From Amphibalanus amphitrite (Eukaryota; Arthropoda; Thecostraca; Balanomorpha; Balanidae), in assembly GCF_019059575.1 (NCBI RefSeq), contig NW_024881568.1, positions 186,001 through 250,000 on the forward strand: a DNA stretch of 64,000 nucleotides, given 5' to 3'. The translations under genes were made by a program, and so were the position numbers. Under the pieces are notes generated by a model that was given only the letters and a program-made list of their open reading frames with translations, had not been told where the DNA came from and did not search any database. Shown piece after piece: positions 4,211 to 39,324 of the stretch (position 1 is the stretch's first letter; each line of letters begins with the position of its first letter).

Positions 4211-5353
4211 ATGCCCAGCATGCAAGCAGCGGAAACACAGTCCTGCCTGTCGTATAGCATCTCTACGCTCGGGGACAGACAGGGGCTGAAGCTTGACACA
4301 TACCTCAGGCTGGTGTGTCTGCCCACAGAAAGGGCACCCCGGACTCGCTCCTGACTGCAGAGCTGCTGCTGCTGGCACCCTTTCACGCGGCTCCTTCTTC
4401 CTCGTTTGCTGAGGGCCGTTTGTGGTCTTCGGTCGACTCTTGGTGGACGCAGCAGTCTCTCGAGCAGACGCCACCTGTAGTCTGCTGAACGCACAGGATC
4501 GCTCCCTGCGGTTGATCTCTTCAGACAGGAAGCTCATCAGCCAATCCAGGTCCGACTCCCTGCCACAGCCCTCACGGGCCCACTCGAGGCGAATGTCTGG
4601 GGTCAGCTTCGACAGAATCAGAGGGACCAGAACAATACCATAACGGTCACCTCCGACATCCAGTGATGCCAAGCTGCGAATGTGGACCAGAAGACGGTCT
4701 TGAAGCTCTCGAAGGGATGGGACGCTCGAGGATGACGCCTCCGGAACAGAGAGCAGCTGTTGAATGTGGGAGAAGATAACCACCTCCTTCCTCCCAAATC
4801 TCTTCATCAGCAGGTCGCAAGCACTGCTGTAGTTTGCTCCAGTCAGAGGCAAACCAGCGACACTCTCCTTGGCTTCATCCACGAGGAATGATCTCAGATA
4901 AGCGAATTTGGTCACTTCGGGCAGATCAGCATTGTGCACTGCGGCCTCAAAACACTCCCAGAAGGACTGCCACTGCAGCACATCTCCTCCAAACTTTGGT
5001 AGTTCTAGTTTGGGTAGCTGCAGGTGGCCTGTTTGCGAGGATCCAATAGAACTTGAGGGCTTCTTGCTCAGTACAGCATCAGCTCTGTTCAGCACATCAG
5101 TTATCCCCTCTCGGAACTCGGCAGCACTCTCAATATCATCTAACATCTCTGCCTCTGAGGGGAAACTGAGCTCGGCTTCCGACTGTGCTTCATCCAACAG
5201 TGCCAGTCTTTTCTCACAATCACCTTTAGCTGTCTGAAGGGCGCTTACATCAATGTCTTGGCACTCGAGCAACTCCTCCAACTTACGGCGACAGCGACTC
5301 ATCCATCCTCGCGCTGCCGCTCTCTTTCGAAGCTTCTCAGTGCTCATCTTCAC
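4208..5353 (-). pseudogene. BEL/Pao gag (DUF1759 family), truncated in its zinc knuckle
   Basis: The 381-codon frame begins at the ATG at 5353. It has an N-terminal helical region, then the LPKLELPKFGGD and WQSFWECFEAAVH motifs typical of DUF1759 Gag, and a Cys/His-rich end (CPFCGQTHQPEVC and CFRCLHAGH). The last motif is the first half of a CCHC knuckle. The stop codon is the TAG at the tip of the inserted hAT transposon. Gag forms the particle that packages the element's RNA. Confidence 0.88.
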
Positions 5354-5392
5354 GCGAGATCACAAAACGAAAATCAAAGATCCCGTTCCCGA

Positions 5393-12150: not shown

Positions 12151-15100
12151 GTGAGTCCGACCAGCTACACTGAACCAGGGGGGGGGGGGGGGGCTAGCTC
12201 GTATTGTGATAGTGACCGCCGGGGCTGCGAGATGCAGCAGCTTGTATATGGGTTTCAAGTGACTTCTAATGCAATGTGTGGTCAAAGCGGTGTGTTTGAT
12301 GGTGGTGAGGAGCAATTTATTGGTAAAATGGATAAGGTAGGTGTGCAGGGTGTACGGATACTTTCAAAGTGTAAAGGTGATTGTAGGACAACCGTTTCTA
12401 CTCGTATCGCAGTATTGTACCGGAGGAGCTCCTGTTCGTGTTTACACAAATATTTCGCGCTACATATGGTCCACCAAACCCCCACATTTACCCTCGCGTT
12501 CCGCGCCGCTCAGACCGGCGGCTCTGGGGGCGGTGGTGTCCGGCTGAACGGACAGGCCGCGGCCGACTCGTCCAACGAGGGAGTGACTGTGGTGGTGGAC
12601 CGGTCGCCGCACGCCGCTGTCGGCCTGCCCACCTCCTACGGCATCGTCACACCCATCTACAAGGAGTGAGTGAATGAAGGTGCCGGCTGCACGGTCGGAC
12701 GGGGACGGTACTGCGGTGCTGCGGGTCGCTCGTTAAATCAAATGATCAGATGGATCCGTAATAAGACTCCATGCAGTGGAACGGTATCAGTATCTGACCA
12801 TCTCAGTCCCATGGACCATTCTGTGTCTTGATCATTGGCCATATGTGACCCGTGCCTGACGTCTATGACACGTGTCTGACCTCTATGACGCGTGTCTGAC
12901 CTCTGTGACCCGTGTCTGACCTTCCTGCCCGGTGCCCGACAGCGCGTCGGAGGCTGCCGGCGGCGGCAAGTCGCTGCGGCCGCTGGCGGTTCGGCCGGCC
13001 GTGGTGCCCGCCGGCACGGCGATGGGCGCTACACTCCTCTCCTCCCGGCACAGCAAGTGCATCGGCTGCCACTGGGTGAGTGCCGCCCCCCCCCCCTGCG
13101 AGCGTGCCTGTCATGGCAAGTCGAGACCATGGAATGGAATGGGAGAGGGTAGTGCCGTGCATTTAGCTGTTGTGCCTTCATGGCTGCGGCCGCCAATGTT
13201 CCCGTTTGCGTGCCGGTGATGACTTCATGTCGGCTTTCCGTTAACGGCCGCTCTACCCGCTCCCCAGGTGAAGCCCATCAAGTACATGATGATGGCGAAC
13301 GGCGCCAAGAGCGGCAACGTCATCTGCTCGGACGAGTGTCTGGAGCAGTGCGTCAACAACGTGAAGGCGGTGAGACTGGGCCGGCCGGGCGGACCGTCCG
13401 CAACTGTGGCGTGAGGGGAGCCAGTCAGTAGTCGGTCCAGTTGGTAGCTGGGTAATGTCTTTTCCTGTGGTATAGCCGATAGCGATATAACCTTGTTGCT
13501 GGTGCGCCCCATTTAGCACCAAGACGATAATCAGGGATTTTGCCGCAGATAGTACTGAGACAGGTGTATGATGATTTGTACTTATGTGGCTCGATTTTAA
13601 ACTGTAAACGAGCTTTATATTTCGGTATGAAAGACGTTACTGGTTGTTTGATCGTCGTGTTACACATGAACACAATACGTGGTAAGTTTGCTGTTCTTTT
13701 GTTTTATGTATTGGCTGTATAACTCCATGCAAGCCATAATGTCTATTTTTACTTGTCGGCAATGCCATATTAACTATCTCCGTCTGCGCAGGGCCGTATG
13801 AACATTGGCAGCGACGGCAGCACGCTGTCGATCCCGGCCGTGGCCGCGCCGCCGGCCGCCAGTCCGGCCACCAGTCTGACAGTGGCCAGCGTCACCTCTC
13901 TCTCCTCTCCCGCGGTGGCGGCCGCCGCCACGCCGGCCTCTGCGGCCGCCACCCCCTCCACTCCGTCCGGCGGCGGCGGCCCGACCCCGGCCGGGGACGT
14001 GCCGCCGGGCTCCAGCCGCAGCCGGACCGTCTGCCAGAACGCGGCGTGCGGCCTGCCGATCCTGCTGAACAACACCTCCCAGCGGCTGCAGCGCACCGTC
14101 TGGGAGACGATGGTGTTCTGCTCCCCCTCCTGCGCCGGTGAGAGGGAGGGAGAGCTGGGAACAGTGAGAGACGGAAAGGGGGGGGGGGTGCAAGCTGGAG
14201 GGCTGCCTGGGAGGTTCGAGCGGAAGGGCTGATATTACTCGGGATGGTGGATTGATTTGGTCAAGCGGACACCAGAGGCATGTTTGTAAGGCCAGGTGAT
14301 ATTGCTACTAGTTCAGCGAAATGTACACGAAAAAACGCACTTGACTGAGATATTTTACGGTGTTGGGTGTTTCCCACCTGTCGCACGGTGCTCGTGACGC
14401 GCTGTCGAGCCGTCCATTCCCCCTCCCTCTGACCATCTGCGCCCCGCCCCGTCCGTCTTACAGTCGAGCACCAGAAGAAGGACGGCTCGTCGTGCGTGTT
14501 CTGTAAGCTCGACCTGCCAGAGCTGGTCATGGGCAAGTACTGCGTCCGCTTTGGCTCGGACGTGCGCCAGTTCTGCAGCAATCTGTGCCTGGACGGCTTC
14601 AAGAAGCGGCTCAAGGTGTGCAGCTACTGCCAGCGCGACATCACTCGCTTCCAGGGCAGCTTCCTGGCGCCGGTCGGGAGTGCCGGCTCTCACCAGTTCA
14701 AGGTCAGTATACGGCCGCGGTGGCGGCCTCGACGGGTGACTCTCTCAGCGACCAAAAAGGTGTCTGTATATTTGTATATTCAATAGACTTTGCTGGCCGC
14801 ATTTGGTCACAGCGCTGCGTGTGGATGAATTTGTAGCGTGTCGAAATATGACTGGATACTGGATAGTACTGCTGAAGGTAGAATATGACGGTCCCGAGCT
14901 ATTTTGGTCTCGCTTTTATTGCCATTTCTTATATCAGCTACTGACGTTCCACGTCTCGCCCACGTCCAGACTGCCACAGCCGTACCCGTGACTAACCCTT
15001 CCTGTTCGGCCGTCAGGAGTTCTGCAGCCAGTCGTGTCTGACCCAGTACAAGACCACGCACAGCGAGGGCGGCAAGAAGCCGCCCGTACAGGCCAACTGT

Positions 15101-18100: not shown

Positions 18101-21100
18101 GCCGCTCGGCCGGCTCCGTCTCGGACGACTCGGGCCCGGAGCCGGAGCTGGCCTACGGCTCGGACGGGCCCGGCACTCCGGACAGCGACGCGGACGGCTC
18201 CGACTCTGGCAGCGTGGACAGCGCCGGCCGGCCGCCGCCGCACAAACGCCGGAAAGGTGACCGGTCGCGGGGCGGGGAGGGGAGGCCGCCCGACCCGTCA
18301 GACCCGCCCCCGGCGGCACTCCCAGGGTGGGACTGTGACGGACCGCCCGGCTAGGAACGGGAACAGTAATGGGTGCGGAGGGGCGCGGGGCGCATTCTTA
18401 GGGGCGCTGGGCGCGTGCATTCCAATTTCGGGAAGCATGACTTAAGCCTTTCGGCCAGTAGTTGGGGGAACTGTGCGATTTGACCATGACAGAACATTGC
18501 GGAAACAATATGATGGAAATGCTCAGACGTGGAAATTTAACCACATTGGTAGATACAAGTCGTATTGAACTTGCATCCAGATTTGTTTGCATGACTTATT
18601 CCACGTGCAATGCCAGCTGTTGGCAGTTACGTTTTTATGTCGAAAGGGTGTTCTGATGAGAACGTTGCCCGATTTTCACTAACATTCTGCTTTCCTACTG
18701 CCAGGTGACCAAAATGTTCCATTTTGTGTACATTTCATTGTAAATATACATTTCGCGAATGTAATTGAAGATGTTTGCAAAGTGAAAAAGGTTACGATGT
18801 AGCCCAACGACCCGAATGAGGTCACAGCGCATGCCATAAGCCAGCTGGGTGTCCCGCGTTAGTTCGATAGAGACAATCATGTTGTCCGATGATGTTAGAA
18901 TCTAATATGAATAATTTTGAACGTCAGCTATGCCACATATTCCTTTTGTAGAGTTTGACTGGCCGAAGAAGTGACGCTTGACTGACTTCGCGTGGAAAAT
19001 ATCGCTCGGTTTGAGCGACGGTGCTTTTAGTAGAGAAGCACAACGTTTCGTTTTGACTGGCCGAGTTAAGTTTTCAAACTTCGCCCGTGTGTGAATTTTC
19101 ACAGCGCCCAGCGTATAAGGTAGGGTCGGTTGCACATTCCTCAGCCGTTCGCCCACCCCGTTAAACTAGAGCTACACAAAAAGAGCGTGTTGCTCGTGAC
19201 AAAACGAAGCCGATTGTAACCGAACGCGAGACTAGACGAAACGGCGGTGGGTCGAGGGCTGCGAGACTGGTGGGCTGGGTGAGATGTGAATCGTAGGGAC
19301 TGATCAAACGAGGCAGTGTGGGCGCGGTGGGGTCGTGATTGAGTGTGGAACGGACGGGGAAGATGATAAAGGAGCGAGTTAGCGAATAACTATTGCGATT
19401 GGTGAATGCGAACATTTAGTAGGTAGCGAATCGAGAGTCGTCCCCTCGCGAGTCTGGCTCTGTTTTCCCCAACTCCCCCTGCCCGCCCGTCGCCAGTATC
19501 CACCCTCTGACTAACTCCCCCTCCCTCCTGTCGCCAGCGGGCCCGCGCCGTCCGTCGCCACCGTCGCCGTCAGCCGTCGCTGTGGACGGGGTCGCTGCGC
19601 GGGTGGACCTGGCGGCCCTGCTGCGTGCGCCGCCCACCGAGCCCCAGGCGCGGCCCGGCGGACCGCCGGAGGCAGGGGACGGCGCCGCACCGCAGCGGAC
19701 AGAGTTCGTGGGACCGGTGGACGAGTCGCTGCCCTGCCACCGGAGCGCTATAAAGGTAGGCCAGAGCCGTCAAGGTATGAAAGGGAAGGTGGTGGTCGGG
19801 GATAATAAGTATCGAAGCAGAATATGATATGGTCAGGATGAGACATTGTGTCATTGAACCTAAATGATCAGGCTAGCTATTCGCACCATCGTATTTTTGC
19901 ATTAATGATACACTGCTAACTATATTCACTTACAGTGTGTACTTTGTCAGCTGATTTTCTGCACACGATAGCCTCACCTTCGACATCGTTCTCTGACGCT
20001 GCCCCGACCGCCCCCTCTGCTCGGCAGTACACGTGGTGTGTGCGCGTGTTCGAGCAGTTTATCCGGGAGCGGAACCGCCGGCCGCTGCCGGTCTGTGACT
20101 CCGACTCGGCTCAGTCCGGCACCGACTCGGAGACGCACGAGCGGCTGGTGGCTGATCCGCTGCAGGCCACGCCGTCGGAGCTGGCGGCCGGCCTGCGCGC
20201 GCTGGTCAGAGAGCTGAGGAGGCCCGGCGGTGAGCCGTACGCACCCGACCTGCTCCACTACCTGCTACTCGGTGAGGAGGGTGCGCAGAGGGCGGACCGG
20301 ATGCTACGGGGAGGGGGATTCGGGGAAAGAAGTAAAAAGTCTTTTTGATCTGTACTAGTGCAGAACTTTGTGGAAATATACGCAAGAAAGGAGGGTGAGA
20401 ATGCATGGTAGTGTGAGGGAACTGTAAGGAGATGCGATTCGGTGGGCTATTTCCTCCTGTGCACACCTCAAATCTCCTTTCCAGACAGTCAGTTAACGAT
20501 GTTCCGACTCGGCCCTCTAACTGTTGATAACCTACTGTGTCTGTCTAGCAGGGATCCAGGTGTACCTGCTGGAACACCGTCGCTGTCGCTAGGACAGCCT
20601 GTAACCGACCGTGTCTGTCCGGCAGGGATCCAGGTGTACCTACTGTTCCACGCTGGGACAACTAGTGTCTGTCTGTGTGTCTGTGTCTGTGTCTGTCCGG
20701 CAGGGATCCAGGTGTACCTACTGTTCCGCACTGGGACAGCCTGTAACCCACCATGTCTATCCGGCAGAGATCCAGGTGTACCAACTGGGACAGCCCGTAA
20801 CCCACCATGTCTATCCGGCAGGGATCCAGGTGTACAACCTGTTAGGACAGCCTGTAACCCACCGTGACTCTGTCCGTCAGGGATCCAGGTGTAGGTACCT
20901 GTTGGGACAGCCTGTAACCCGCCATGTCTATCCGGCAGGGATCCAGGTGTACCTGTTGGGACAGCCTGTAACCCACTGTGTCTGTCCGTCATGGATCCAG
21001 GTGTACCGATTGGGACAGCCTGTAACCCACTGTGTCTGTCCGGCAGGGATCCAGGTGTACCGGTTGGGACTAAATGGGACAGCCTGTAACCCACTGTGTC

Positions 21101-24100
21101 TGTCCGTCAGGGATCCAGGTGTACCTGTTGGGACAGCCTGTAACCCACTGTGTCTGTCCGTCAGAGATCCAGGTGTACCTGCTGGAATAGCCTGTAACCG
21201 ACCGTCTCTGTTCGGCAGGGATCCAGGTGTACCTGCTGGGACAGCCTGTAACCCACTGTGTCTGTCCGGCAGGGATCCAGGTGTACCGGTTGGGACTAAA
21301 TGGGACAGCCTGTAACCCACTGTGTCTGTCCGTCAGGGATCCAGGTGTACCTGTTGGGACAGCCTGTAACCCACTGTGTCTGTCCGTCAGAGATCCAGGT
21401 GTACCTGCTGGAATAGCCTGTAACCGACCGTCTCTGTTCGGCAGGGATCCAGGTGTACCTGTTGGGACAGCCTGTAACCCACTGTGTCTGTCCGTCAGGG
21501 ATCCAGGTGTACCTGTTGGGACAGCCTGTAACCCACTGTGTGTCTGTCCGTCAGGGATCCAGGTGTACCTGCTGGGACAGCCTGTAACCCACTGTGTATC
21601 TGTCCGGCAGGGATCCAGGTGTACCTGCTGGAACACCGTCGCTGGGACAGCCTGTTCTGGGGCGAGTCGTACGCAGAGGTCGGAGCCGCACTGCAGGAGC
21701 GACTCGAGCCGCTCGTCGAGGACATCAGCAGGGCCGGTGAGTTGGAACCAGGGGGGGGAGGGATGCTCGACATGGTCTCGGAGTCTGTCTGGACTCGAGA
21801 AATGTGCACCTTTTAGTTTGTCGCGTCATAAAATGGGCGCTCATCTCACAGGTCTCGTATGGGGATGGTAACTGTCCATATAGCTGTCGTATAGCGTTTG
21901 ATAGATAATCCCGGGTCGGGTTGATTTTGTAGTTACCTTTGAGTGCGTCTGCCCGTGTATTGTTGACAGCGGCAACTGTGGTAGCTGGGCCAGTACAAAC
22001 TGAGCCCCATGAGGGAAGGACTAATCCTGCCGTTTGACTTGCAGAGGCGGGCCCACTGACCAGGCTGATGGTACTCGGTCTCCCTGGAGACCCGTTAACC
22101 CATCTGCTCCCCTCCCTTCCCCGTTCTACAGAGGTGGACCCGCGGCGGCACGTGCTACCCCCCCCCCCCCCTCCCACAGAGGCGGACCCGCGGCGGCACG
22201 TGCTGACCCCCCCACCCCTCCCCACAGAGGCGGACCCGCGGCGGCACGTGCTGACTTCACCACCCCCTCCCCCTCCCACAGAGGCGGACCCGCGGCGGCA
22301 CGTGCTAACCCCCTCCCCCTCCCCGCAGATGCGGACCCGCGGCGGCACGTGCTGACTTCACCACCCCCTCCCCCTCCCCGCAGATGCGGACCCGCGGCGG
22401 CACGTGCTGACCCCCCCCCCCCCCACCCCTCCCCACAGAGGCGGACCCGCGGCGGCACGTGCTAACCCCCTCCCCCTCCCCACAGAGGCGGACCCGCGGC
22501 GGCACGTGCTGACCACCCACGTGGAGGAGCGGCAGCTGTGGGAGGCGCGCGTGCTGGGCGCCCACTCGCCCCAGTCGCTGGTCACCACCGTCATCTACTT
22601 TGTCACCAAGTACTTCCTCATCGGCGTGAGTTCACCTGTGGGGATCGTCATCTGCAGTGATGAGAGATGTTATGGTCTTCAGCTATGCCGTAAAGCTATT
22701 ACAGCGGGCTTACCGTTGCCTCTAACTGGTGGATAATGAATGGGTGTACGACTGCTATAAAATGTCCTTGACAGAAGTTGGAACATTCTCTTTAACGCAG
22801 CCACCTCTGAGTAAGCTGAATTGTATGTTGTCGCCAAATACAGTGCGCTCTGTTCCAAGGCAAGCGTTAACAATGGAACTTATAGGCGTCTGCTCGATGG
22901 ATTTTTATCTGTCCATCCCTCATTAATGTGTACCCGACTGCCGCTGCCGGCACTGACGGCGCCGTCCTCTATTCGCTCTCAGTCGCTACAGTGGCACCAG
23001 AAGCTCAGTTTCGCCATGATCCAGGAGAGCATCAACCTCAAGAGCCGGCTGAAGCAGAGCTCACTGCGACTGCTGGACTCGCGTAACGTCTGTAAGTGAT
23101 TACACGACATCGGTGTAAGGTCTAAAATACAGGTCCGATAGGCGGGCAGAGTCGTGCCTCGCTAAGTGATTAGTGTTGGCCCTTCAGGGAGAGGTTGGCA
23201 TAGAGCATCGTGCTTGGCTTTCAGACACTACAATAGTGTTATGATGTTAGAATCTTGGAGTGCTTCTCGTCTAGAGTTTCAGTTCTCGTATCTATTATTT
23301 GATATTGTGATTTTTTAAAGATAAAGATCTTTCAGGTGTTGCTTTGCTACTTCACCTAGACGAAGTCACGTTCTAGCCGGTCCTTTCTACTACTTTGATT
23401 ATTCTACTATATTTGATTACTACTTTGATTATTATTGGCCGGGCGGCCGGCCGTGCGGACGCTTTTGCGAGGCTTATATCTCAGCAACCACTTGACCGAT
23501 TTACATGCGGTAATTTTTGTAGGGTAGCTTCATTCCTTCTACCAAGTATTGGACTATTCTCGATGCATGTGGGTGAACCCTTATGCACGTGCCACGTGCA
23601 AAACAAAGAGGTGTCAGTTTTGTTATTGTTGCAATATCTCGGTAACTACTTGGCCGATTGCACTGAAAGTTGGCATGTAGGTAGGCACTCACTAGGCACT
23701 GCATATCCATGTGCCAGAGTTGGGGTGCTGCTGCACGTGCGCACGTGCAGGGGTCGTTTCCAGATCTCGAGAACGGCTCAACCGATTGCGCTCAAATTTG
23801 GTACACAGTTAGGGACCGGTTAGTTAGGGTGCCGTGCACAAGTCAGTTGGGACCCTTTTTTGCACGTGCGCACGTGCAGGGTGCCGCTTCCAGATCTCGA
23901 GAACGGCTGGGCCGATTGTGCCCAAATTTGGCACATCGCTAGAGACCGGTTAATAGGGTGCCGTGCACAAGTCAGTCGGAGGTACCCCCTCGCAATTTCG
24001 CACGTGCAAGGCCCACCCTCTCGCTCGCTCCGCTAGTCGCCCCAAAAGGCGTTATACTGGTTATTCAATCATTTCTTTATCCACGTGGCCGGTGTTCACC

Positions 24101-24667
24101 GCGGTTTGGCGCATGTCTTGATAAATTTGGTTTCGTGTTTCTGCAGACAAGCGAAGTAAGACGTTCGAGATGCCGGCGAACCAGGAGGACCCGTTCCGGT
24201 GTCCGGTGCGCTTCATCGAGTTCTACCTAAGCCGGTGGTGAGTGCCGGGTCGGGTGCTGGGGAGGGGCCGGACCACGACGCCTGCAGGGTACCCTGCTTG
24301 TCATCAATGTGGTGTGATGCGATACCCGGCGTCACTCCGTAGCTCTGCCCAATATTTAGTAGCCCCTTCCCTGACGCCTCGCTCTCCGGTTCACGACCGT
24401 CTGCGGAAAGTTCTCCCGCTCGTCCCTAACAGTACCGTCTCTGACTCCCCCCCCCCTGCCTCCCTCCGCAGCCCGGCGGCGGAGCGCAGCTCCCGCTCTG
24501 CGCCGCTGTATCTGACGCCAGCCGCGGACGGCCGGCCCGACGGCGACGCGTGGTTCTCGTCAGAGCCGCTGGCGGCCGAGGCGCTACGCCAGGTGCTCTC
24601 CCGACTGCTGACGGTCCGCGAGCTGCAGGCGGCGCTACTGGGCGCCACCGGCGGCGATGGCTCGTGA
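11410..24667 (+). CDS. woc/ZMYM: ZMYM/woc-type MYM zinc-finger protein, complete coding region, 20 exons
   Basis: Coding exons: 11410-12150, 12514-12665, 12943-13075, 13268-13369, 13792-14137, 14464-14702, 15017-15230, 15591-15745, 16106-16230, 16545-16663, 16953-17243, 17536-17744, 18064-18256, 19538-19755, 20028-20271, 21611-21736, 22486-22625, 22983-23091, 24147-24237, 24472-24667. They total 4,143 bp with every phase matching: 1,380 residues, close to vertebrate ZMYM2 and ZMYM3. Order: acidic Ser/Gly-rich N-terminus (1-about 300), eight MYM/TRASH-type fingers with C-x2-C and C-S-x2-C pairs (about 335-775), an ATQT block, a Pro-Val repeat PVPVPMYVPVPMMMYS (about 880), an acidic linker with a KRRRS nuclear-type signal, and a DUF3504 domain (about 1080-1380). 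Relatives bind SUMO and LSD1-CoREST-HDAC complexes; Drosophila woc acts in transcription and telomere capping. The start ATG lies just after an acceptor. Two of its acceptors are tandemly amplified. Confidence 0.92.
12514..12665 (+). CDS. woc/ZMYM: ZMYM coding exon 2
   Basis: Acceptor CAG at 12511-12513, donor GTGAGT at 12666. It encodes a Gly-rich start and a GVTVVVDRSPHAAVGLPTSY segment. The upstream intron has a 15-base G run at about 12179. Confidence 0.8.
12943..13075 (+). CDS. woc/ZMYM: ZMYM coding exon 3: start of first MYM finger
   Basis: It ends in HSKCIGCHW, the first C-x2-C of the finger series. Its acceptor is the last unit of a 20-bp tandem repeat (12846-12942). Donor GTGAGT at 13076. 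Confidence 0.85.
13268..13369 (+). CDS. woc/ZMYM: ZMYM coding exon 4: MYM finger 1, second half
   Basis: It encodes VKPIKYMMMANGAKSGNV then ICSDEC, completing finger 1. Flanked by CAG (13265-13267) and GTGAGA. Confidence 0.85.
13792..14137 (+). CDS. woc/ZMYM: ZMYM coding exon 5: Ala/Ser linker and MYM finger 2
   Basis: After a long Ala/Pro/Ser linker it encodes CQNAACGLPILLNN and VFCSPSC, the two halves of a finger. Phase 1 donor GTGAGA at 14138. Confidence 0.85.
14464..14702 (+). CDS. woc/ZMYM: ZMYM coding exon 6: MYM fingers 3 and 4
   Basis: It encodes CVFCKLDLPELVMGKYC, QFCSNLCLDGFKKR, then CSYCQRDITRFQGSF, which opens finger 4. Donor GTCAGT. Confidence 0.88.
15017..15230 (+). CDS. woc/ZMYM: ZMYM coding exon 7: MYM fingers 4 and 5
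   Basis: It opens with EFCSQSCLTQYK, closing finger 4, and continues with CSVCLKNTIIEHKV and QLCSQICLKAYK. Donor GTATGT at 15231. Confidence 0.88.
15591..15745 (+). CDS. woc/ZMYM: ZMYM coding exon 8: MYM finger 6
   Basis: It encodes CAVCKSLLVTKNMTQFRVW, NLCSQSCSNVF, and CRYCK opening finger 7. Confidence 0.88.
16106..16230 (+). CDS. woc/ZMYM: ZMYM coding exon 9: MYM finger 7
   Basis: It encodes VKKYNFDMMEIT and LYCSVHCLKNC. I chose the acceptor CAG at 16103-16105 because the stronger-looking one at 16055 puts a stop in frame. Confidence 0.82.
16545..16663 (+). CDS. woc/ZMYM: ZMYM coding exon 10: MYM finger 8
   Basis: It encodes CAHCHTAMDSSALANTTNS and IFCGTKCAMAFK. The acceptor at 16542-16544 is required by phase; the CAG at 16513 would give an immediate stop. 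Confidence 0.82.
16953..17243 (+). CDS. woc/ZMYM: ZMYM coding exon 11: linker ending in ATQT block
   Basis: An Ala-rich linker is followed by LMPPPPVFRRNVCVQVQPRK and TATVATQT, the segment that follows the fingers in ZMYM2-4. Confidence 0.85.
17536..17744 (+). CDS. woc/ZMYM: ZMYM coding exon 12: Pro-Val repeat
   Basis: It encodes PVPVPMYVPVPMMMYS and PVPVPVPLMLPVPVP, the Pro-Val stretch characteristic of ZMYM2/3/4. Acceptor at 17533-17535, donor GTGAGG at 17745. Confidence 0.88.
18064..18256 (+). CDS. woc/ZMYM: ZMYM coding exon 13: acidic/Ser linker with nuclear-type basic patches
   Basis: It encodes GKRRRSAGSVSDDSGPE, an Asp/Ser stretch and HKRRK. Donor GTGACC at 18257 is weaker than the others. 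Confidence 0.75.
18257..19537 (+). other. ZMYM intron 13
   Basis: The 1.3-kb intron shows no repeat or RNA gene that I recognise. It is AT-richer than its flanking exons and ends in a pyrimidine tract before CAG at 19537. Confidence 0.5.
19538..19755 (+). CDS. woc/ZMYM: ZMYM coding exon 14: linker to DUF3504
   Basis: It encodes a Pro/Ser start, VARVDLAALLRAPP and EFVGPVDESLPCHRSAIK. Phase 1 to phase 0. Confidence 0.78.
20028..20271 (+). CDS. woc/ZMYM: ZMYM coding exon 15: start of DUF3504
   Basis: It encodes YTWCVRVFEQFIRERN, TPSELAAGLRALVRELRRP and YAPDLLHYLLL, the N-terminal half of DUF3504, a domain related to tyrosine-recombinase-derived folds in ZMYM and QRICH1. Confidence 0.88.
20552..21610 (+). 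repeat. tandem array of 18 copies of the exon-16 splice acceptor and exon start
   Basis: The unit is an acceptor (usually CTGTCCGTCAG or CTGTCCGGCAG) followed by GGATCCAGGTGTACCTG and GGGACAGCCTGTAACC. All but the pyrimidine/acceptor part derives from the first 46 bases of the exon at 21611. Exon-like starts lie at 20552, 20626, 20704, 20768, 20822, 20881, 20939, 20993, 21047, 21111, 21165, 21219, 21273, 21337, 21391, 21445, 21499 and 21555. Spacing is mostly 54, otherwise 56-78. Only the copy at 20993 has lost its AG. The first copy keeps 13 exon bases deleted from most others, so it looks oldest. Confidence 0.95.
21611..21736 (+). CDS. woc/ZMYM: ZMYM coding exon 16: DUF3504, downstream of acceptor array
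   Basis: It encodes IQVYLLEHRRWDSLFWGESY and a helical LEPLVEDISRA. The acceptor CAG at 21608-21610 is the nineteenth and last of a tandem series. It is the only one leading into the full exon. Confidence 0.88.
22132..22485 (+). repeat. tandem array of 7 copies of the exon-17 splice acceptor and exon start
   Basis: Each unit has a pyrimidine tract, CACAG or CGCAG, and AGGCGGACCCGCGGCGGCAC with GTGCT, the first bases of the exon at 22486. Exon-like starts lie at 22132, 22180, 22228, 22282, 22329, 22384 and 22439, with spacing 47-55. A degenerate GCAGAGGCGGGCCC at 22041 may be an older copy. Every copy is a plausible 3' splice site. Each also carries a CACGTG. Confidence 0.95.
22486..22625 (+). 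CDS. woc/ZMYM: ZMYM coding exon 17: DUF3504, downstream of second acceptor array
   Basis: It encodes EADPRRHVLTTHVEERQLWE and SPQSLVTTVIYFVTKYFLIG, conserved in DUF3504. Donor GTGAGT at 22626. Confidence 0.88.
22983..23091 (+). CDS. woc/ZMYM: ZMYM coding exon 18: DUF3504
   Basis: It encodes LQWHQKLSFAMIQESINLKS and SSLRLLDSRNV. Acceptor at 22980-22982, donor GTAAGT at 23092. Confidence 0.82.
23435..24060 (+). mobile_element. HINE-like (Helentron-associated) element, copy H1, 5'-truncated
   Basis: It shares over 600 bp with H2 (28297-28993, reverse) and H3 (33761-35610). Shared features are a CGGCCGGCCG start region, repeated blocks with CAGATCTCGAGAACGGCT and TGCACGTGCGCACGTGC, and the end CGCCCCAAAAGGCG hairpin plus TTATACTGG at 24060, followed by T. 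The 5' terminal motif seen in H2 and H3 is absent here. It lies in the ZMYM intron between exons 18 and 19. Confidence 0.75.
24147..24237 (+). CDS. woc/ZMYM: ZMYM coding exon 19: DUF3504
   Basis: It encodes KRSKTFEMPANQEDPFRCPV then RFIEFYLSR; the CPV..FYLS pattern is typical of ZMYM C-termini. Acceptor at 24144-24146, donor GTGAGT at 24238. Confidence 0.88.
24472..24667 (+). CDS. woc/ZMYM: ZMYM terminal coding exon 20
   Basis: It encodes AWFSSEPLAAEALRQVLSRL and ends GATGGDGS-stop (TGA 24665-24667). This matches the tryptophan-containing end block of the family. Confidence 0.85.
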
Positions 24668-25620: not shown

Positions 25621-25680
25621 CAGAAACCATAACTAGGTAGACTATTACTGTGCAGTGTGTAGGACTCAAAAACACGTTAA

Positions 25681-26871
25681 CCCGCGCCCCGCTGGGGGTC
25701 CTGGATTTCCACGCCCTGCTGGGGGGGGGGGGGGTGTTTGAACACCCCCCCTTCTAACTCGGCTCCTGGGCCACGTAGCGATACGCGGAAGGCGGCGTTC
25801 GAAAGAGCGTCAAAAATAAGGAGGAAATCACTTCGGTCAATTTTTTGGTCAGGTCAAAGGTCAGGTCACCAGAGGTCATTGAAGGCAAAATTTCGCCGAT
25901 TTCCAGGTCGAATGTCGACAATTTCCAAGAAGCCAACGCATAACTCGGGAACCAATAGAGCTACAGCGCCGCGGAAAAGCGCATTCGATAGCCCTATTAA
26001 CGCCCTTTCTGAGTAATTCTCTCAGATTTGACCTAACGTCAACGGTTTTGCCTGCAGGGGGCAAAAACTGCAAAAATAGCCGATTTTTTCGGAAACAGTT
26101 TTTCTGCAATAACTTTTGACCCAAGCCTTGTACGAGCTTACTTTTAGCGGCATCGTGTTCCTCTCGTCAAGACGCATCGAATGAACTATGACTTGACCTT
26201 GAAAGGTCAACTTAAAAATTTGACCTCAGGTCAAGGTCATGACCTGACCGGAAAGGGTCATGTTGCATATCAGTCGATCCGTATCGTCGAGCTGAACACA
26301 TCTAAGGCGTTTTCATCGCTCTAGCATGCCTCTATCAAAAGTTATTTGCGAAAAACTGTTAGATACCATTCGTGACCTAAGATGACCTCAGGGCATAAAC
26401 AGGGGTCACGGACAACATTTTTATGTTCAGCGTGTCTAAACCACTTGTAATTCAGTGTTTGGGAGTGTTTGTAATGTTTTTCGTCCAAAAGAGGCGCATT
26501 TCAGTTTTCTCCCATTGACTTATAATGGGGAGGTCGCAAAATTGACCTGACCTTAGGTCATCGATATCAAAATTCTGAGATATACATTTTGTACATGCTA
26601 TTGCTCTTAGCAATCGCTGAAAGTTTCAAAGCGATCGGTCACTCGGTGTAGCTATGACAGACATTGAAACTTTTTATGAGGTGAGGTCACTTCAAGTGAC
26701 CTGGTGACCTGACCTTGAATGACCTTGGTCTGAAATTTTCATAACATGTGTAGAATTGATGTATGATAAGGTGTACCAAAAACGGCGGCGCTCCGCGCCG
26801 CCGTTTTTGAGATATTCGCGAAAAACCACAAGGGGGGGTGTTCAAACACCCCCCCCCCAGCAGGGCGCGGG
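25681..26871. mobile_element. TTAA-flanked G-hairpin element, copy A
   Basis: It is flanked by TTAA at 25677-25680 and 26872-26875, with ends CCCGCGCCC...AGGGCGCGGG. Each end has a hairpin of a G run and a C run around a TGTTTGAACA or TGTTCAAACA loop. There is no transposase ORF. About twenty AGGTCA/TGACCT hexamers are visible. It is nearly identical to copies B and H. The TTAA target and CCC start suggest a piggyBac-type non-autonomous element, which is inference. Confidence 0.85.
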
Positions 26872-28271: not shown

Positions 28272-31200
28272 GTAAGTTGCACTAAACTTCTACACACCCG
28301 TATAACGCCTTTTGGGGCGACTAACGGAGCGAGCGAGAGGGTGAGCCTTGCACGTGCGAAATTTCGAGGGGGTACCTCCAGCTGACTTGTGCACGGCACC
28401 CTACTAACCGGTCTCTAGCGATGTACCAAATTTGGGCACAATCGGCCCAGCCGTTCTCGAGATCTGGAAGCGGCACCCTGCACGTGCGCACGTGCAAAAT
28501 GGGTCCCAACTGACTTTTGCACGGCACCCTACTAACCGGTCCCTAGCCATGTGCCAAATTTGAGCGCCATCGGTCCAGCCGTTCTCGAGATCTGGAATCG
28601 ACCCCTGCACGTGCGCACGTGCAGCAGCACCCCAACTCTGGCACATGGATATGCATTGCCTAGTGGGTGCCTACCTACATGCCAACTTTCAGCGCAATCG
28701 GCCAAGTAGTTACCGAGATATTGCAACAATTGCAAAAGTGACACCTCTTCGTTTTGCACGTGGCACGTGCATAAGGGGTCACCCACATGCATCAGGAATA
28801 GTCCAATAGGTACTACTAGGTAGAAGGAATGAAGCTACCCTACAAAAATTACCGCGTGTAAATCGGTCAAGTGGTTGCTGAGATATAAGCGTCGCAGAAT
28901 CGTGACCACGGCCGGCCGGCCGGCCGCTCATACTCAGAAATTTCCGTTATTCTACATACGTAAGACTCCGCTCGCTTCGCTCGCTCCGTAATTATGCTCG
29001 ATAGCGGCCACCGTTCCAAGAAAACTATAAGATGTGAAGTGATTCTTACAGTAAATGGTGTGCTTGACGTTGTGGCACCTGTCACCTAACTACATTGGGA
29101 AAACATTGGCACGAGCACCTGACGTTGGCTCACAGAAATACCGAACACGTGTGCTTTAACCCGCGCCCAGCTGGGGGTCCTGGATTTCCACGCCCTGCTG
29201 GGGGGGGGGGGGGGATGTTTGAACACCCCCCCCCTTCTAACTCGGCTCCTGGGCCACGTAGAGATACGCGGAAGGCGGCGTTCGAAAGAGCGTCAAAAAT
29301 AATGACGAAATCACTTCGGTCAATTTTTTGGTCAGGTCAAAGGTCAGGTCACCAGAGGTCATTGAAGGCAAAATTTCGCCGATTTCCAGGTCGAATGTCG
29401 ACAATTTCCAAGAAGCCAACGCATAACTCGGGAACCAATAGAGCTACAGCGCCGCGGAAAAGCGCATTCGATAGCCCTATTAACGCCCTTTCTGAGTAAT
29501 TCTCTCAGATTTGGCCTAACGTCAACGGTTTTGCCTGCAGGGGGCAAAAACTGCAAAAATAGCCGATTTTTTCGGAAACAGTTTTTCTGCAATAACTTTT
29601 GACCCAAGCCTTGTACGAGCTTACTTTTACCGGCATCGTGTTCCTCTCGTCAAGACGCATCGAATGAACTATAACTTGACCTTGAAAGGTCAACTTGAAA
29701 ATTTGACCTCAGGTCAAGGTCATGACCTGACCGGAAAGGGTCATGTTGCATATCAGTCGATCCGTATCGTCGAGCTGAACACATCTAAGGCGTTTTCATC
29801 GCTCTAGCATGCCTCTATCAAAAGTTATTTGCGAAAAACTGTTAGATACCATTCGTGACCTAAGATGACCTCAGGGCATAAACAGGGGTCACGGACACCA
29901 TTTCCATGTTCAGTGTGTCTAAACCACTTGTAATTCAGTGTTTGGGAGTGTTTATAATGTCTTTCGTCGAAAAGAGGCGCACTTTTGAATTTTCTCCCAT
30001 TGACTTATAATGGGGAGGTCGCAAAATTGACCTGACCTTAGGTCATCGATATCAAAATTCTGAGATATACATTTTGTACATGCTATTGCTCTTAGCAATT
30101 GCTGAAAGTTTTAAAGCGATCGGTCACTCGGTGTAGCTATGACAGATATTGAAACTTTTTATGAGGTGAGGTCACTTCAAGTGACCTGGTGACCTGACCT
30201 TGAATGACCTTGGTCTGAAATTTTCACAACATGTGTAGAATTGATGTATGATAAGGTGTACAAAAAACGGCGGCGCTCCGCGCCGCCGTTTTTGAGATAT
30301 TTGCGAAAAACCACAAGGGGGGGGTGTTCAAACACCCCCCCCCCCAGCAGGGCGCGGGTTAATAGGTAGCTGGCCGTCACGTTTACTAATGTCTCCATAC
30401 CCATACCCAGGTATGCTAAAAAAATGCTGCATACTGTGGGACCGATTCCCTTCTTCCATATCATGATAAAGAGAGTACACGTTCAAGCTTTGTTACAATG
30501 AAATACCCGTCACTTTCCCCTTCGTGACGGCACCGCCCGACGACCTAGATATACCAGAAGGTCGGCGGACCGGTCCTTCATTGTGCAACCACCTTGCATA
30601 TAACGCACAGGCACTGGCGAACCCCAACCAGTCTACCAGTCGACCACAGTTGCAATACAAGTCTCGGCCCGCTCAGTCGTCTCCTTCCGCGCCTCCGCGA
30701 CAATGGTGGCAGCGGCGGTCGAGGGGACTTGTGCCCCTCACCACGGACCCCAGCCTCTACATCTGCACTGACATCGCAGACTGGTTAGTCCGTGCTCCGT
30801 GACAGTGTATCGCCCCTACGTCGCGTCATCGACTAGGGAGCTGATCATCCTGGACTCGTCATCGTCCAGCAGCACCGTCTCCAGTGAGTAGCTCTGCCCA
30901 GCAAGACTATCTGCCCTGCGGCAAGGTCATCAGCTACCCTGGACTACTACGGAGCCCGCCGACAGCGCACGGCTCATCAGCCCGCGCCGTCCTCCTCAGC
31001 ATCATCGAGTGATGGACACCACCTCGCCGAAGGACTCAAGATCGGAGGAGAGAAGATAAAACAAAAACTTCAACGCTAAATTCAAGACAACTTGACACCC
31101 AAAATCAAGAAAATTCACCCATTATGAACTTTTGCTGTATTTTCGTCCAAAAGTGACAGTGAAATTGTGCTGTGAAATTTGTTTTAACTTCGATGTGTTT

Positions 31201-33295
31201 CAAAAACCGTACTGTTTCATTATCCGTTTTCGTCAGTGTTCTGTCGTTTGTTGCGCTTCATTGTGGTTGCCCACCCCAAAATTCACGGAGAAATTGCAAG
31301 TGCGTTTAATTTTTGCCTGCACTTTGCCGTGTCATTTTGACACTAGTAAACGTAGAACGAGCATACTCTGAACGGTATGAACATTCAAATACGTTAATCG
31401 TCGTCAATTCACTGAATTTATATTGTGTTGATATTCGGCCAGAGATGCCGAGGGCCATGGAGATGCCCAGGGACCGTCCCCGCCAAGAGTGCGGAGGGAT
31501 CGCCCGGTAGTAGGTGTAATTGTCACGAAACTTACTTATCTGTTCATACCATTTTGTGATACGCTCATATGGAAATTTCTTTCTCCGTCAGCTAAACGTT
31601 TCCTCTCTTTGTTATGATCGCTTCGGTTCCCTACGCTTCCCTGGGGGAGGGAAGATAATGTGGGACCGATTCCCTTCTTCCATATCATGATAAAGAGAGT
31701 ACACGTTCAAGCTTTGTTACAATGAAATACCCGTCACTTTCCCCTTCGTGACGGCACCGCCCGACGACCTAGATATACCAGAAGGTCGGCGGACCGGTCC
31801 TTCATTGTGCAACCACCTTGCATATAACGCACAGGCACTGGCGAACCCCAACCAGTCTACCAGTCGACCACAGTTGCAATACAAGTCTCGGCCCGCTCAG
31901 TCGTCTCTCCTTCCGCGCCTCCGCGACAATACCTACATACCTATTGAAACAGTTCTCTAAAAGCTTATGACTTTAATGTTTTTCCCGTTTTCCCCTTGTT
32001 CAGCCTCACGGTTTACTGACTACCGCGTCGCTTTTCAGCGCATGGACAGCTGGGACGTTCGTAAGGAATACGGAACACGGTCCAAGTTCCCGTCTCGTAG
32101 CGTGTACGACGGGAGCCGAAGAGTCCCCGCTGATCGCTCTTCGTCTTCCGACTACGACCGCCGCGAGCTCCAGGACAGGAAGGAGTTGGACCGTGAACTG
32201 AGCGGGCCGCGGGCGGTGGACGAAGACAGGTCAGAGGGCCGTGCCCAGGACTGGCAGAGGAGGGCGGCTCACCACTGGGACCGCGCCCAGTACGAGGACC
32301 GCCGGGAGGAGGCGGACCGCTGGGACCAGGACAGGTGGTCCGAGGACGACCGGGAGGTCCGCCCCAACCGCCGCGTGCCGCCGAGCCCGCGCCACCAGTG
32401 GCACACGCAGCGCGCCGTGCCGGGGGAGCCTCCGTCACGCGGCGTGCCGGGAGAGCCTCCGTCCCGCGGCGTGCCCGGCTCGCCGCCGTTCCGCGGCTAC
32501 GACCTACAGAGCCGCGGCATCAACTGGGCGACCTCGCATCGCGGCGAGTTTCAGTTCATCGCGCGCCTGTCGGCCTACTACACCAAGAGTGGCGACTGGT
32601 ACTACGAGCCGTGCGGCGCCTCCATCATCAGCCCCGTCTTCCTGCTGACGGCCGCGCACTGCTTCGACCACCAGCGGGCGGCCGTGGGACACGTGGTCCC
32701 GGCGCTCGTCTACGCCTACCTTAACGACTTTGACACCACGCGGCCGGACGAGTCGGCCATCGTGAACGCCTCGGAGGTCATCCTGCACGATAATTACACC
32801 CCGCGGGACAGCGACCGACCGCTCAACGACGTGGCAGTGGTGCGGCTCTCCAGTCCGCTCGACTTCAAAGCGCTCGGCGTCGGTAGCATTTGCCTCGACT
32901 CGGCCCCCATTGGAGACAACGTCGACATGACCATCGCCGGCTGGGGCAAGACAGCCGAGAACGCCGCCCACATGAACACCCAGCTCTTCAAGTCGACCAA
33001 CGAGAAAACGCTCAGCCTCGACCGGTGCAAGTACGACACGTCCTACTCGCCGGACGAGATCGACTCAGACGCCATCTGCGCCAGCGGCGCCAACCAATTC
33101 GGGGTGCAGGATGCGTGCCAGGGCGACTCGGGCGGACCCATGTTCCACCAGAAGAACGGCCAGTTCGCGCAGACGGGCGTGGTGTCGTGGGGTCGCGGCT
33201 GCGGCCGCGCCTCCTACCCGGGCGTTTACGCCAGGGTGTCCAAGTTCGCCAACTGGGTGGTCGCCAAGACCAACGGAGACGCTGACACGTGCTAG
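28221..33295 (+). CDS. secreted trypsin-like serine protease with charged N-terminal region, two coding exons
   Basis: Exons 28221-28271 and 32039-33295 join phase 0 to phase 0: 435 residues. The first exon is a 17-residue signal peptide core, MRLWLAAACLLATAVAV, with donor GTAAGT. The mature part starts with about 150 Arg/Asp/Glu-rich residues without cysteine and a PGEPPSRGV-type repeat. A chymotrypsin-fold domain follows with LLTAAHCF (His57), LNDVAVVRL (Asp102) and DACQGDSGGP (Ser195, with Asp189 predicting cleavage after Lys/Arg). Disulfides 42-58, 168-182 and 191-220 can form; Cys122 may pair with the C-terminal Cys. At the activation position the sequence is RGINWATS rather than R-IVGG. 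No clip domain. Substrate unknown. The 3.8-kb intron holds three transposons. Confidence 0.85.
28297..28993 (-). mobile_element. HINE-like (Helentron-associated) element, copy H2
   Basis: On the minus strand it begins AATTACGGAGCGAGCGAAGC after a T and ends ...GGCGTTATACGGG before a T. The 5' terminal motif TTACGGAGCGAGCGA recurs inverted 40-50 bp inside the 3' end as CTCGCTCGCTCCGTTAGT. This is the asymmetric terminal inverted repeat of Helentrons, with a CGCC...GGCG hairpin beyond it. It lies in the protease intron. Confidence 0.78.
29160..30358. mobile_element. TTAA-flanked G-hairpin element, copy B
   Basis: Flanked by TTAA at 29156-29159 and 30359-30362. It is almost the same sequence and length as copy A, in the same orientation, including the AACGGCGGCGC...GCGCCGCCGTT palindrome near 30268. 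Its TGTTTGAACA hairpins and AGGTCA hexamers are kept. Non-coding; lies in the protease intron. Confidence 0.85.
30435..30702 (+). repeat. LTR 1 of the TRIM-like element
   Basis: 268 bp, TG...CA ends; matches LTR 2 almost throughout, apart from a two-base indel near 30680. Confidence 0.88.
31659..31928 (+). repeat. LTR 2 of the TRIM-like element
   Basis: 270 bp, preceded by a polypurine tract and followed by the ATAC duplication. Confidence 0.88.
32039..33295 (+). CDS. protease exon 2: charged region and chymotrypsin-fold catalytic domain
   Basis: Acceptor CTTTTCAG at 32038; stop TAG at 33293-33295. The acceptor at 32003 was rejected because its phase does not match exon 1. Confidence 0.87.
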   Translation, partial: RMDSWDVRKEYGTRSKFPSRSVYDGSRRVPADRSSSSDYDRRELQDRKELDRELSGPRAVDEDRSEGRAQDWQRRAAHHWDRAQYEDRREEADRWDQDRWSEDDREVRPNRRVPPSPRHQWHTQRAVPGEPPSRGVPGEPPSRGVPGSPPFRGYDLQSRGINWATSHRGEFQFIARLSAYYTKSGDWYYEPCGASIISPVFLLTAAHCFDHQRAAVGHVVPALVYAYLNDFDTTRPDESAIVNASEVILHDNYTPRDSDRPLNDVAVVRLSSPLDFKALGVGSICLDSAPIGDNVDMTIAGWGKTAENAAHMNTQLFKSTNEKTLSLDRCKYDTSYSPDEIDSDAICASGANQFGVQDACQGDSGGPMFHQKNGQFAQTGVVSWGRGCGRASYPGVYARVSKFANWVVAKTNGDADTC

Positions 33296-33760: not shown

Positions 33761-35610
33761 AATTACGGAGCGAGCGAAGCGAGCGGAGTCTTTCCTTAGA
33801 TTAACCCGCGCCCCGTAGGGCTACCGGCGGACCCTACCACCCGTAGGGGGGGGGGGCCGTTTCGGCCCCCCCCTAAGATCTCGGAAAGTTACCTGCCGAT
33901 TTTCAAAATTCAAACGGCGTTTGATAGCCCTACCCGGGAACTACCTTGTGACCAAATTTCATTGACCTAGGTCAAACCGATGACGTCACAGGTCAGGTCA
34001 AAGGTCATATTTTCACCGTTCACAGGCAATTCAAGAAATGTGCTGTGAAATCGAGTAAATTGGTAATTTATTGAAAACCATCGATGGTATATTGTTCGTC
34101 AAACACATACTTTGCTATCTGAGGTCACTGATACCAGGTCAGGTCACAGCGAGGTCAGGTCACCGGGGGTCACAATATGAATGTGTCGTGTGATGCATGT
34201 TTTATGGTCCATTTTACATGACAAATGCGATTATGTGGGTTAGGCAGCCTTTGGGGCCAGCCTAGGTCACGTTTTGGTGAAGGTCAGGTCAAGGTCAGGT
34301 CAAATTAGGTCAAATTTCAAAGTTGATATTTTTGCATAAAATGGGTATCCATTAGATGCAGCTCGTCACGGGGAGTCTAATGGTGGTCTTTGTTTTGCTC
34401 TACGAGTTCTAGAATTGCCAAAAATCGAGTTTGAAAATTTGACGTCATCATTTTTGAACAGTTTTTTCGCTATAACTTGGCCAAAAAACGAGGTATCGAT
34501 CTGAAATCTGGTATGTAGATAGAAAACGGTAGGTACTATCACATATATTCCGGTTTTTTCGAAACTCAAAAAACTTTTTGGATTTTTTGGCTAATATATC
34601 CCAAAAAATGCTTTTTTGATTTTTGGGGATCAAAACTCAAAAATTTCAAAAATCCGAGATAGCAGTTTTGTAGCCCTGTCAATTATACACCTTTTATGTC
34701 TTGATCATTTTTCTGTATCTTCAAAGCTGTAGGCCTGACAGGTCTTCTCGCGAAGGTCTTTTTTCGGTCGAAAATGACAGAACATGACGTCACTCTGACG
34801 TCATTTGTGGCCAACCTATCACAGCCTCTGGAAAAAAGTTTTTGTCACAATGTGTAAAATTGATGCCCGGAGGGGCCCTGAAAGTTTGGTGGCGATATCT
34901 CCAGCCGTTTAGGAGATATCGACCGAAAAGGACAGGGGGGCGTTTCGGCCCCCCCCTACGGGGCGCGGGTTAACGGAAATTTCTGAGTATGAGCGGCCGG
35001 CCGGTCGTGCGGACGCTTTTGCGAAACTTATATCTCAGCAACCACTTGACTGATTTACACGCGGTAATTTTTGTAGGGTAGCTTCATTCCTTCTACCAAG
35101 TATTGGACTATTCCCGATGCATGTGGGTGACCCCTTATGCCGTGCCACGTGCAGAACGAAGAGGTGTCAGTTTTGTAATTGTTGCAATATCTCGGTAACT
35201 ACTTGGCCGATTGCGCTGAAAGTTGGCATGTAGGTAGGCACCCACTAGGCACTGCATATCCATGTGCCAGAGTTGGGGTGCTGCTGCACGTGCGCACGTG
35301 CAGGGGTCGTTTCCAGATCTCGAGAACGGCTGGATCGATGGCACTCAAATTTGGTACATGGTTAGGGACCAGTTATTAGGGTGCCGTGCACAAGTCAGTT
35401 GGGACCCATTTTGCACTGCGCACGTGCGAGGTGCCGCTTCCAGATCTCGAGAATGGCTGGACCGATTGTGCCCAAATTTGGCACATCGCTAGAGACCGGT
35501 TAGAAGGGTGCCGTGCATAAGTCAGTTGGAGGTACCTCCTCGCAATTTCGCACGTGCAAGGCCCACCCTCTCGCTCGCTCCGTTAGTCGCCTCAAAAGGC
35601 GTTATACTGG
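33761..35610 (+). mobile_element. HINE-like element, copy H3, interrupted by TTAA element C
   Basis: It starts AATTACGGAGCGAGCGAAGC after a T at 33760 and ends GGCGTTATACTGG at 35610 before a T. A TTAA element occupies 33805-34969. The host sequence resumes at 34974 with GGAAATTTCTGAGTATGAGC as in H2. So H3 is older than element C. Confidence 0.8.
33805..34969. mobile_element. TTAA-flanked G-hairpin element, copy C (CCGTTTCGG subfamily)
   Basis: Flanked by TTAA at 33801-33804 and 34970-34973; ends CCCGCGCCCCGTAGGG and CCCTACGGGGCGCGGG. G-run/C-run hairpins carry CCGTTTCGG or CGTTTCGGCC loops. The interior is distinct from copies A and B but again rich in AGGTCA (including AGGTCAGGTCAAAGGTCA near 33990). 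Confidence 0.83.
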
Positions 35611-36189
35611 TGAATTATGAAATCAGCAAAGCTTCTGCATATCACACTGCAATGCATCAGGGAAATGCAACATGTCAATGCTGATACTATTTCAAAAGAG
35701 GATTAGGCTGTAAACATAAATATGCACATTTTTAACTTTGATGCCGTAATGTGATTCCAATCAAAACACAACCCTTATGGACACTACCTTTTAACCTTAA
35801 CCCGCGCACCGACGGGGGTCTGCGCCAACTTCGTACCGACGGGGGGGGGCGGATGACCGCCCCCCTGAGATCTCGAGAACGAAGCAAGATAGCGACAAGC
35901 GGTAAACGGCAAGGGATACGCACGGACAAGGTCTACAATTTTTACTAAGGTCATTTTCAGGTCAGGTCAAAGATGACGTCACAGGGGTCAAAAAGTCAAA
36001 ATGGCGGCGCTAGGTATAGGGAGAGTTTTTCTCGAATAACTTTCGAACTAGTCAATATAGGAACAAACTAAGGGCATCATCGTGATCCTCTCGTCAATCC
36101 GCATCGAATGATATATATGTTGACCTCGAAAGGTCAAGGTCAAAGGTTAACCTCAGGTCACGTGACCTCGAGGTCATCATGTATATCAT

Positions 36190-38726: not shown

Positions 38727-39324
38727 TATCATTCGATGCGTCTTGACGAGCTGAACACAATGAGACCATCCACGCGTCTGTATCTTGTTCCTGTACGGAG
38801 TTATTGGCCAAAAACCTTTGGTGACCTTTGATGACGTCACATGACCTCACAGCTGCCCAACAGCAAAACAGACCTCAAGGTAGTGAAGGTTGATCGTATA
38901 TGAAGACATGTATGGTATATGGGGCCATTCCGACCCGTTTTAGTGGTAAAAACAGGGAGTTGATTTTTCCCCCATTGACTTATAATGGGGAGGTCGAGAA
39001 ATTGACATGACCATAGGTCATCGATATCAAACTTCCGAGATAAACAAATTGTAGCTACTAATGACCTTATAACATCCTGCGACTTTCAAAGGCCTCCGAC
39101 ATCTACTGTAGCTCTGGCACGGTGACAAAGTTGCAAAAAAGTAACTTGAGGTTGGGTCATTCAAAGTGACCTGGTGACCTGACCTTAAAAGTTAGGAGGT
39201 TCAAACTTGCACACCATGTGTAAAATTGATGAGAGAATGGTCGTACCAAATTTCGCGGCGCGCTATTCGCGAAAAACCTCAGGGAGGGGGGCGGATATCC
39301 GCCCCCCGTCGGTGCGCGTGTTAA

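Follow-up and report, generated by a model that had tools for sequence, protein, structure and literature searches.

Tandemly repeated 3' splice sites in a ZMYM/QRICH1-type gene of the barnacle Amphibalanus amphitrite

Minisatellite-like duplications of intron-exon boundaries, called mirages, have been described in the Adh3, globin, TnC and PGBD5 genes of lancelets; they reportedly leave normal splicing undisturbed and are considered possibly general for cephalochordates (PMC3087553, PMC3902484). The globin examples are BflGb6, with 6 and 3 units on two haplotypes, and BflGb9; somatic instability was reported at Adh3, and intron gain from mirage-type repeats was proposed for the globins (PMC3087553). 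Variable internal tandem repeats at exon-intron boundaries, with intron gain proposed, are also on record for human genes of segmental duplications (PMC2812944), FAM20C carries a variable number tandem repeat (VNTR) spanning an intron-exon junction (PMC5941971), and in Drosophila intron gain has been attributed to tandem duplication of AG/GT proto-splice sites (PMC2891723). Here we describe a comparable locus in A. amphitrite. The window analysed, 64,000 nucleotides long (positions 186,001 to 250,000 of contig NW_024881568.1, hereafter C71, in the 807.5-Mb assembly GCF_019059575.1), contains a ZMYM/QRICH1-type gene in which the 3' splice site (acceptor) and the first bases of the following exon are repeated in tandem. 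Such arrays occur at exons 16, 17 and 20, and their copy number differs between what appear to be two alleles.

Repeated acceptors on two apparent alleles

The product of the gene (Table 1) carries the Pfam domains DUF3504, QRICH1 and zf-FCS, a set that we take to be the ZMYM/QRICH1 architecture. An earlier note, made from the letters of this DNA, had claimed 19 tandem copies of the exon 16 acceptor and exon start, and a copy search and Tandem Repeats Finder (TRF) agree on that number, the TRF scores (1163-1272) being far above chance expectation. Each unit of this array 1 consists of a TAACC-type motif, a pyrimidine/G tract, the AG and then GGATCCAGGTGTACC, and the first exon bases lie from 20552 (copy 1) to 21611 (copy 19, the authentic acceptor). 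As the note also had it, the AG is present in 18 of the 19 copies, the authentic one counted, and the commonest unit is 54 bp, the final two spacings measuring 56. The copy lacking the AG is copy 8, with an AT at 20993, and nine of the 18 spacings are 54 bp. Over both alleles, the unit lengths include the frame-breaking values 56, 58, 59, 64 and 74. On C71, none of the 18 upstream acceptors yields a full-length frame, in agreement with the note: copies 1, 4, 5, 7, 8 and 9 match the frame of the exon, and five of them (4, 5, 7, 8 and 9) run into the predicted stop, a TAA at 21313, copy 1 stopping earlier, at 20590. Since exon 17 is preceded by an array of its own, array 2, which the note had missed, two adjoining acceptors have been amplified. 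All eight copies of array 2, including the authentic one, have the AG, and one of the seven upstream copies (copy 6, AG before 22384) is in frame and free of stops and would add 34 amino acids.

A DNA search of the same genome gave matches at only one other locus, on contig C81. Of the 38 kb retrieved there, ~34 kb follow the order of the window as blocks that are 85-96% identical, interrupted by insertions on either side. Many kinase matches elsewhere pair up with equal score on two contigs, so the assembly appears to be an uncollapsed diploid with both haplotypes present. C71 and C81 thus appear to be two alleles of one gene, a recent large duplication being an improbable alternative, and their divergence is in line with the high allelic divergence reported for the barnacle Balanus improvisus (PMC8270832). 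All 150 scored candidates match Chitin_bind_4, a family of arthropod-type cuticle proteins, and on this ground a lancelet origin of the window was rejected. The C81 gene is intact (1384 amino acids), has the same set of 19 introns, and differs by 85 synonymous and 37 nonsynonymous codons over 1379 aligned ones.

Copy numbers on C71 and C81 are 19 and 10 at exon 16, 8 and 1 at exon 17, and 1 and 5 at exon 20, the single copy of exon 17 on C81 representing the unexpanded, or empty, site. In the C81 version of array 1, all ten copies have the AG, the authentic one counted, and five of the nine upstream acceptors (copies 4-8) would be productive, with 40-112 additional amino acids. Array 3, at exon 20 of C81, keeps the AG in three of five copies, authentic included, two of the four upstream copies having lost it; of the two upstream copies with an AG, one would be productive (46 additional amino acids). 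Arrays are therefore present on at least one allele in 3 of 19 introns, or at 4 of 38 acceptors over both alleles, and a copy of the exon end was found at none of the 38 donors. We considered a preference for 3' over 5' sites and dropped it, these numbers being too small and non-independent and few donors having been sampled elsewhere. Other arrays on C81 were inspected by eye in seven stretches, and none lay clearly at an acceptor.

To compare acceptor strength we used a scoring matrix built from the other acceptors of the gene. The authentic acceptor scored 8.6 in array 1 of C71 (upstream copies, 3.8-11.4) and 17.2 in array 2 (upstream copies, 11.1-18.8). With upstream copies scoring in the same range as the authentic acceptor, any use of the last copy would need a cause other than strength. 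The claim that the spliceosome must use the last acceptor holds on C71 and fails on C81, where five of nine upstream copies keep the frame. On sequence grounds, a choice of the last copy might operate through exon definition, the resulting exon being 126 or 140 nucleotides long as against up to 1185.

Table 1. Features of the ZMYM/QRICH1-type gene on C71 (window coordinates)
Feature	Coordinates	Strand	Basis
ZMYM/QRICH1-type gene, 20 coding exons, 1380 amino acids	11410..24667	+	exon model with one unbroken frame; Pfam domains
Intron 2 array, 20-bp unit x3.8, branch-point-like motif GTGTCTGACC, exon-free	12846..12922	+	TRF
Array 1, 19 copies of branch-point-like motif, pyrimidine tract, AG and exon 16 start	20522..21636	+	
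Two blocks 226 bp apart in array 1 (roughly copies 9-12 and copies 13-16), identical along 225 bp	21011..21461	+	
Authentic coding exon 16	21611..21736	+	exon model and copy search
Array 2, 8 copies of exon 17 start (28-30 nucleotides), C-rich tract and AG	22128..22518	+	TRF, directly before exon 17
Authentic coding exon 17	22486..22625	+	exon model and copy search
Exon 20 acceptor region, single copy on C71; counterpart on C81 is array 3	24440..24520	+	

Occurrence elsewhere and formation of the arrays

Elsewhere in the genome we sampled the upstream flanks of 70 domain matches (kinase, 20; helicase, 40; kinesin, 8; myosin, 2). These flanks are partly non-independent (L068 and L070, for example, or L087 and L088, look like alleles), and the last ten extend only ~175 bases upstream. 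Scoring placed an acceptor in 45 of the first 60 flanks, at an implausible distance from the match in three of these 45, and in eight of the last ten. Acceptor plus exon start were duplicated in three of the 70: L037, with a lag of 72 and at an exon that precedes the kinase match; L069, with a lag of 78; and L086, with a lag of 82. A first test, which required 10 matching bases on each side of the acceptor, missed all three, and they were found by eye and by an exon-start test; the latter also flagged L039 and L042, acceptor-like but well upstream of the exon, and L062, which is donor-like. The presumed allele of L069 (L094) has the same duplication with differences of its own, that of L037 (L093) is identical over 371 bases, and L084, either an allele or a paralogue of L086, has a nearly identical exon and hardly alignable introns. 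When all AG sites were scanned, 88 were duplicated, and 19 of these had a predicted exon or were followed by coding-like sequence; five belong to the three arrays, and none of the 14 others is a predicted acceptor. The affected introns perhaps amount to a few per cent, with a wide error.

Short arrays of a branch-point-like motif that lack exon sequence are a separate observation. The one in intron 2 ends ~20 nucleotides before the exon 3 acceptor, and L077 (189-318) similarly has units of 20-22 bp ending just before an acceptor; these arrays vary between alleles.

The arrays probably arose by head-to-tail duplication of a segment running from the end of the intron, mostly from about the branch point, to ~28-55 nucleotides into the exon, and the repeat would then have expanded and contracted by slippage or unequal exchange. 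Each unit carries a pyrimidine tract, a branch-point-like motif and, mostly, an AG, so that a complete acceptor remains next to the rest of the exon, and in this way the duplication can persist as a near-neutral change. At the empty site of array 3, exon TATCTGACGCC and intron TCTCTGACTCC share TCTGAC, which lies 40 bases inside the exon and, in the intron, 32 ahead of it, and the repeat junction falls there. The junction of L086 is at ATCTA, common to the exon and to the ATCTAAC of the intron, that of L069 lies between GAC and TCCC, and that of array 1 is at TAACC. As judged by eye, a branch-point-like motif is thus at the junction in four of six cases (array 1, array 3, L069 and L086); for array 2 and L037 such a motif might come from the exon, and the CTGAC or CTAAC present in the exons of arrays 2 and 3 could act as one for the next copy. 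Branch points are read from motifs and junctions by eye, and the pattern is also one to be expected if working acceptors were preferentially retained.

Within array 1, 15 of 27 copies have their nearest relative exclusively on their own allele, and some C71 and C81 copies are each other's nearest, so the array probably predates the split of the alleles. The inner copies 9-16 of C71 include identical ones, and the lowest nearest-neighbour scores are those of copies 1 (0.59) and 2 (0.52) at the upstream edge, but the downstream copy 18 reaches 0.92, a mixed result for the concerted evolution, with edge units excluded, that marks lancelet mirages. A separate ungapped matrix overstates some distances. 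The perfect 226-bp block pair may have been doubled recently within the array, a sign of recent turnover, or else in assembly. Twelve exon columns are invariant across the 19 copies of C71; constraint on decoys was rejected as the cause because the same columns vary among the C81 copies.

Competing explanations

We believe that the arrays are probably mirage minisatellites, that is, near-neutral boundary duplications that preserve the splice site and were expanded by slippage or unequal exchange. The earlier note had left a choice between decoys, a non-productive switch and a purely structural expansion; given the allelic copy numbers, the loss of AG in array 3, the intact proteins and the undisturbed splicing of lancelet mirages, structural expansion fits best, and a decoy or switch is unlikely. 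A function beyond tolerated instability is unsupported by the tests made here, and we infer both the microhomology origin and the near-neutrality of the arrays. Several observations weigh against this reading. The AG is kept in 26 of the 27 upstream copies of array 1 (17 of 18 on C71, 9 of 9 on C81), and the least variable columns are those around the AG and exon bases 2-11, which could reflect constraint rather than drift; homogenisation would give the same conservation, and the copy search was seeded on that core. The evidence for microhomology is weak: the junction of array 3 falls at a 6-mer common to exon and intron although the two also have an unused 8-mer in common, and two 6-mers that exon and intron share at the empty site of array 2 are both away from the junction. 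Finally, a de novo finder, albeit a noisy one (52 predictions on reversed as against 91 on real sequence), gave 55 exons outside the gene, and the absence of a duplicated exon start from all of them argues that the phenomenon is not general; on the same exons the first test gave no acceptor and one donor duplication, and the exon-start and exon-end tests gave none of either. A broader proposal, that 3' splice sites are hot spots of tandem amplification started at the branch point, with ladders segregating between alleles at several per cent of introns, splicing choosing the acceptor closest to the exon body, and in-frame ladders of the C81 type feeding isoforms and future introns, is one that we put forward as speculative and doubtful.

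A regulatory ladder of decoys, in which upstream acceptors compete, stop-containing mRNAs are degraded and array length tunes ZMYM output, might be suggested by C71, where the frame is kept by none of the 18 upstream copies of array 1 and by only one of the seven of array 2, and also by upstream sites as strong by score as the authentic one and by the retention of the AG in array 1 of both alleles. We nevertheless hold it to be unlikely: allelic copy number is unstable (19/10 and 8/1), the productive acceptors of C81 (5/9) indicate that the poison property is not maintained, and half of the upstream copies of array 3 (2/4) no longer have an AG. Less likely again is that the upstream acceptors serve to vary the protein by inserting repeats into its C-terminal part (40-112 residues at exon 16 on C81, 34 at exon 17 on C71 and 46 at exon 20 on C81). 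Each of these inserts keeps the frame and contains no stop, and the commonest unit of 54 nucleotides equals 18 codons, but such variation is impossible in array 1 of C71 (0/18), and the unit lengths other than 54 listed above disrupt the frame. Early intron gain, by which segments of array 1 could become introns and microexons, we judge very improbable. Units of this array contain an AG, eight exon bases and a GT (CAGGTGTACC), the AG being present in 18 of the 19 C71 units and the GGATCCAG-type octamer followed by GT in all 19, and intron gain has been proposed from such repeats for lancelet globins and from boundary tandem repeats for human genes; yet the GTGTAC donor is unlike the GTGAG-, GTCAG- or GTAAG-like donors common in the gene, the would-be microexon of 8 nucleotides shifts the frame, and both alleles have the same set of 19 introns. 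An assembler that multiplied or misplaced units is the least probable explanation: it would account for the doubled 226-bp block of array 1 on C71, with its exact run of 225 bp, but array 1 is found on two contigs with different copy types and numbers, its units diverge by up to tens of per cent, and three more cases occur at unrelated loci.

Neighbouring elements and relation to described systems

The window also holds several other elements. Two of ~1.2 kb (25680-26871 and ~29159-30363), near-identical by eye, have matching C/G-rich inverted ends beside TTAA; C81 is without the first, the flanking blocks abutting there, and without 29160-31985, which contains the second. Also missing from C81 is 35800-39321, which encloses an 820-amino-acid open frame with a reverse transcriptase domain, RVT_1 (36198-38657, plus strand). 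Another element, dispersed and duplicated internally over ~130 bp (TGCACGTGCGCACGTGCAGGGG...), occurs in both orientations (23732-24008, ~28300-28900 and 35285-35529), also within intron 18 of the ZMYM gene and in C81. The remaining features are a 444-amino-acid open frame with a trypsin domain (31961-33292, plus strand), 93.6% kept on C81, a 383-amino-acid open frame with DUF1759 (4211-5359, minus strand) and a tandem duplication of a 271-bp unit at 99% identity (57730-58268).

With 19/10, 8/1 and 5/1 copies, the natural alleles described here offer a ready means of asking what guides the spliceosome when several 3' splice sites are equal: their strength, their distance or exon definition. 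The arrays also demonstrate that minisatellites spanning a boundary recur in at least one arthropod, which bears on the origin of introns and isoforms. The literature searches made here returned no arthropod mirage, a result that is not proof of absence.

The human boundary repeats, in the segmental-duplication genes and FAM20C, can alter splicing and resemble the barnacle arrays in being polymorphic and in lying at an exon-intron boundary; they concern recent paralogues or a single VNTR, whereas here alleles of one gene carry many complete acceptors. The gain of introns through duplicated AG/GT proto-splice sites, which Zhuo et al. (2007) reportedly described, is alike in that a tandem duplication copies splice signals. 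In that process, however, the duplication lies inside a coding exon and creates a new intron, while in the barnacle gene a 3' splice site already present has been multiplied, and no intron of C71 or C81 is missing from the other allele, all 19 being shared. The closest likeness is to the lancelet mirages, with which the barnacle arrays have in common units that span the boundary, splice signals in many copies and a copy number that varies between haplotypes. They differ from them in the arthropod host, the number of copies (up to 19), the mostly 54-bp unit and the presence of three arrays in one gene, and also in that lancelet mirages occur at 5' boundaries as well, the ZMYM gene having none at its donors. 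The ZMYM arrays probably extend the known mirage class to a new phylum, and they stand out by an unusually high copy number and by occurring three times in a single gene.

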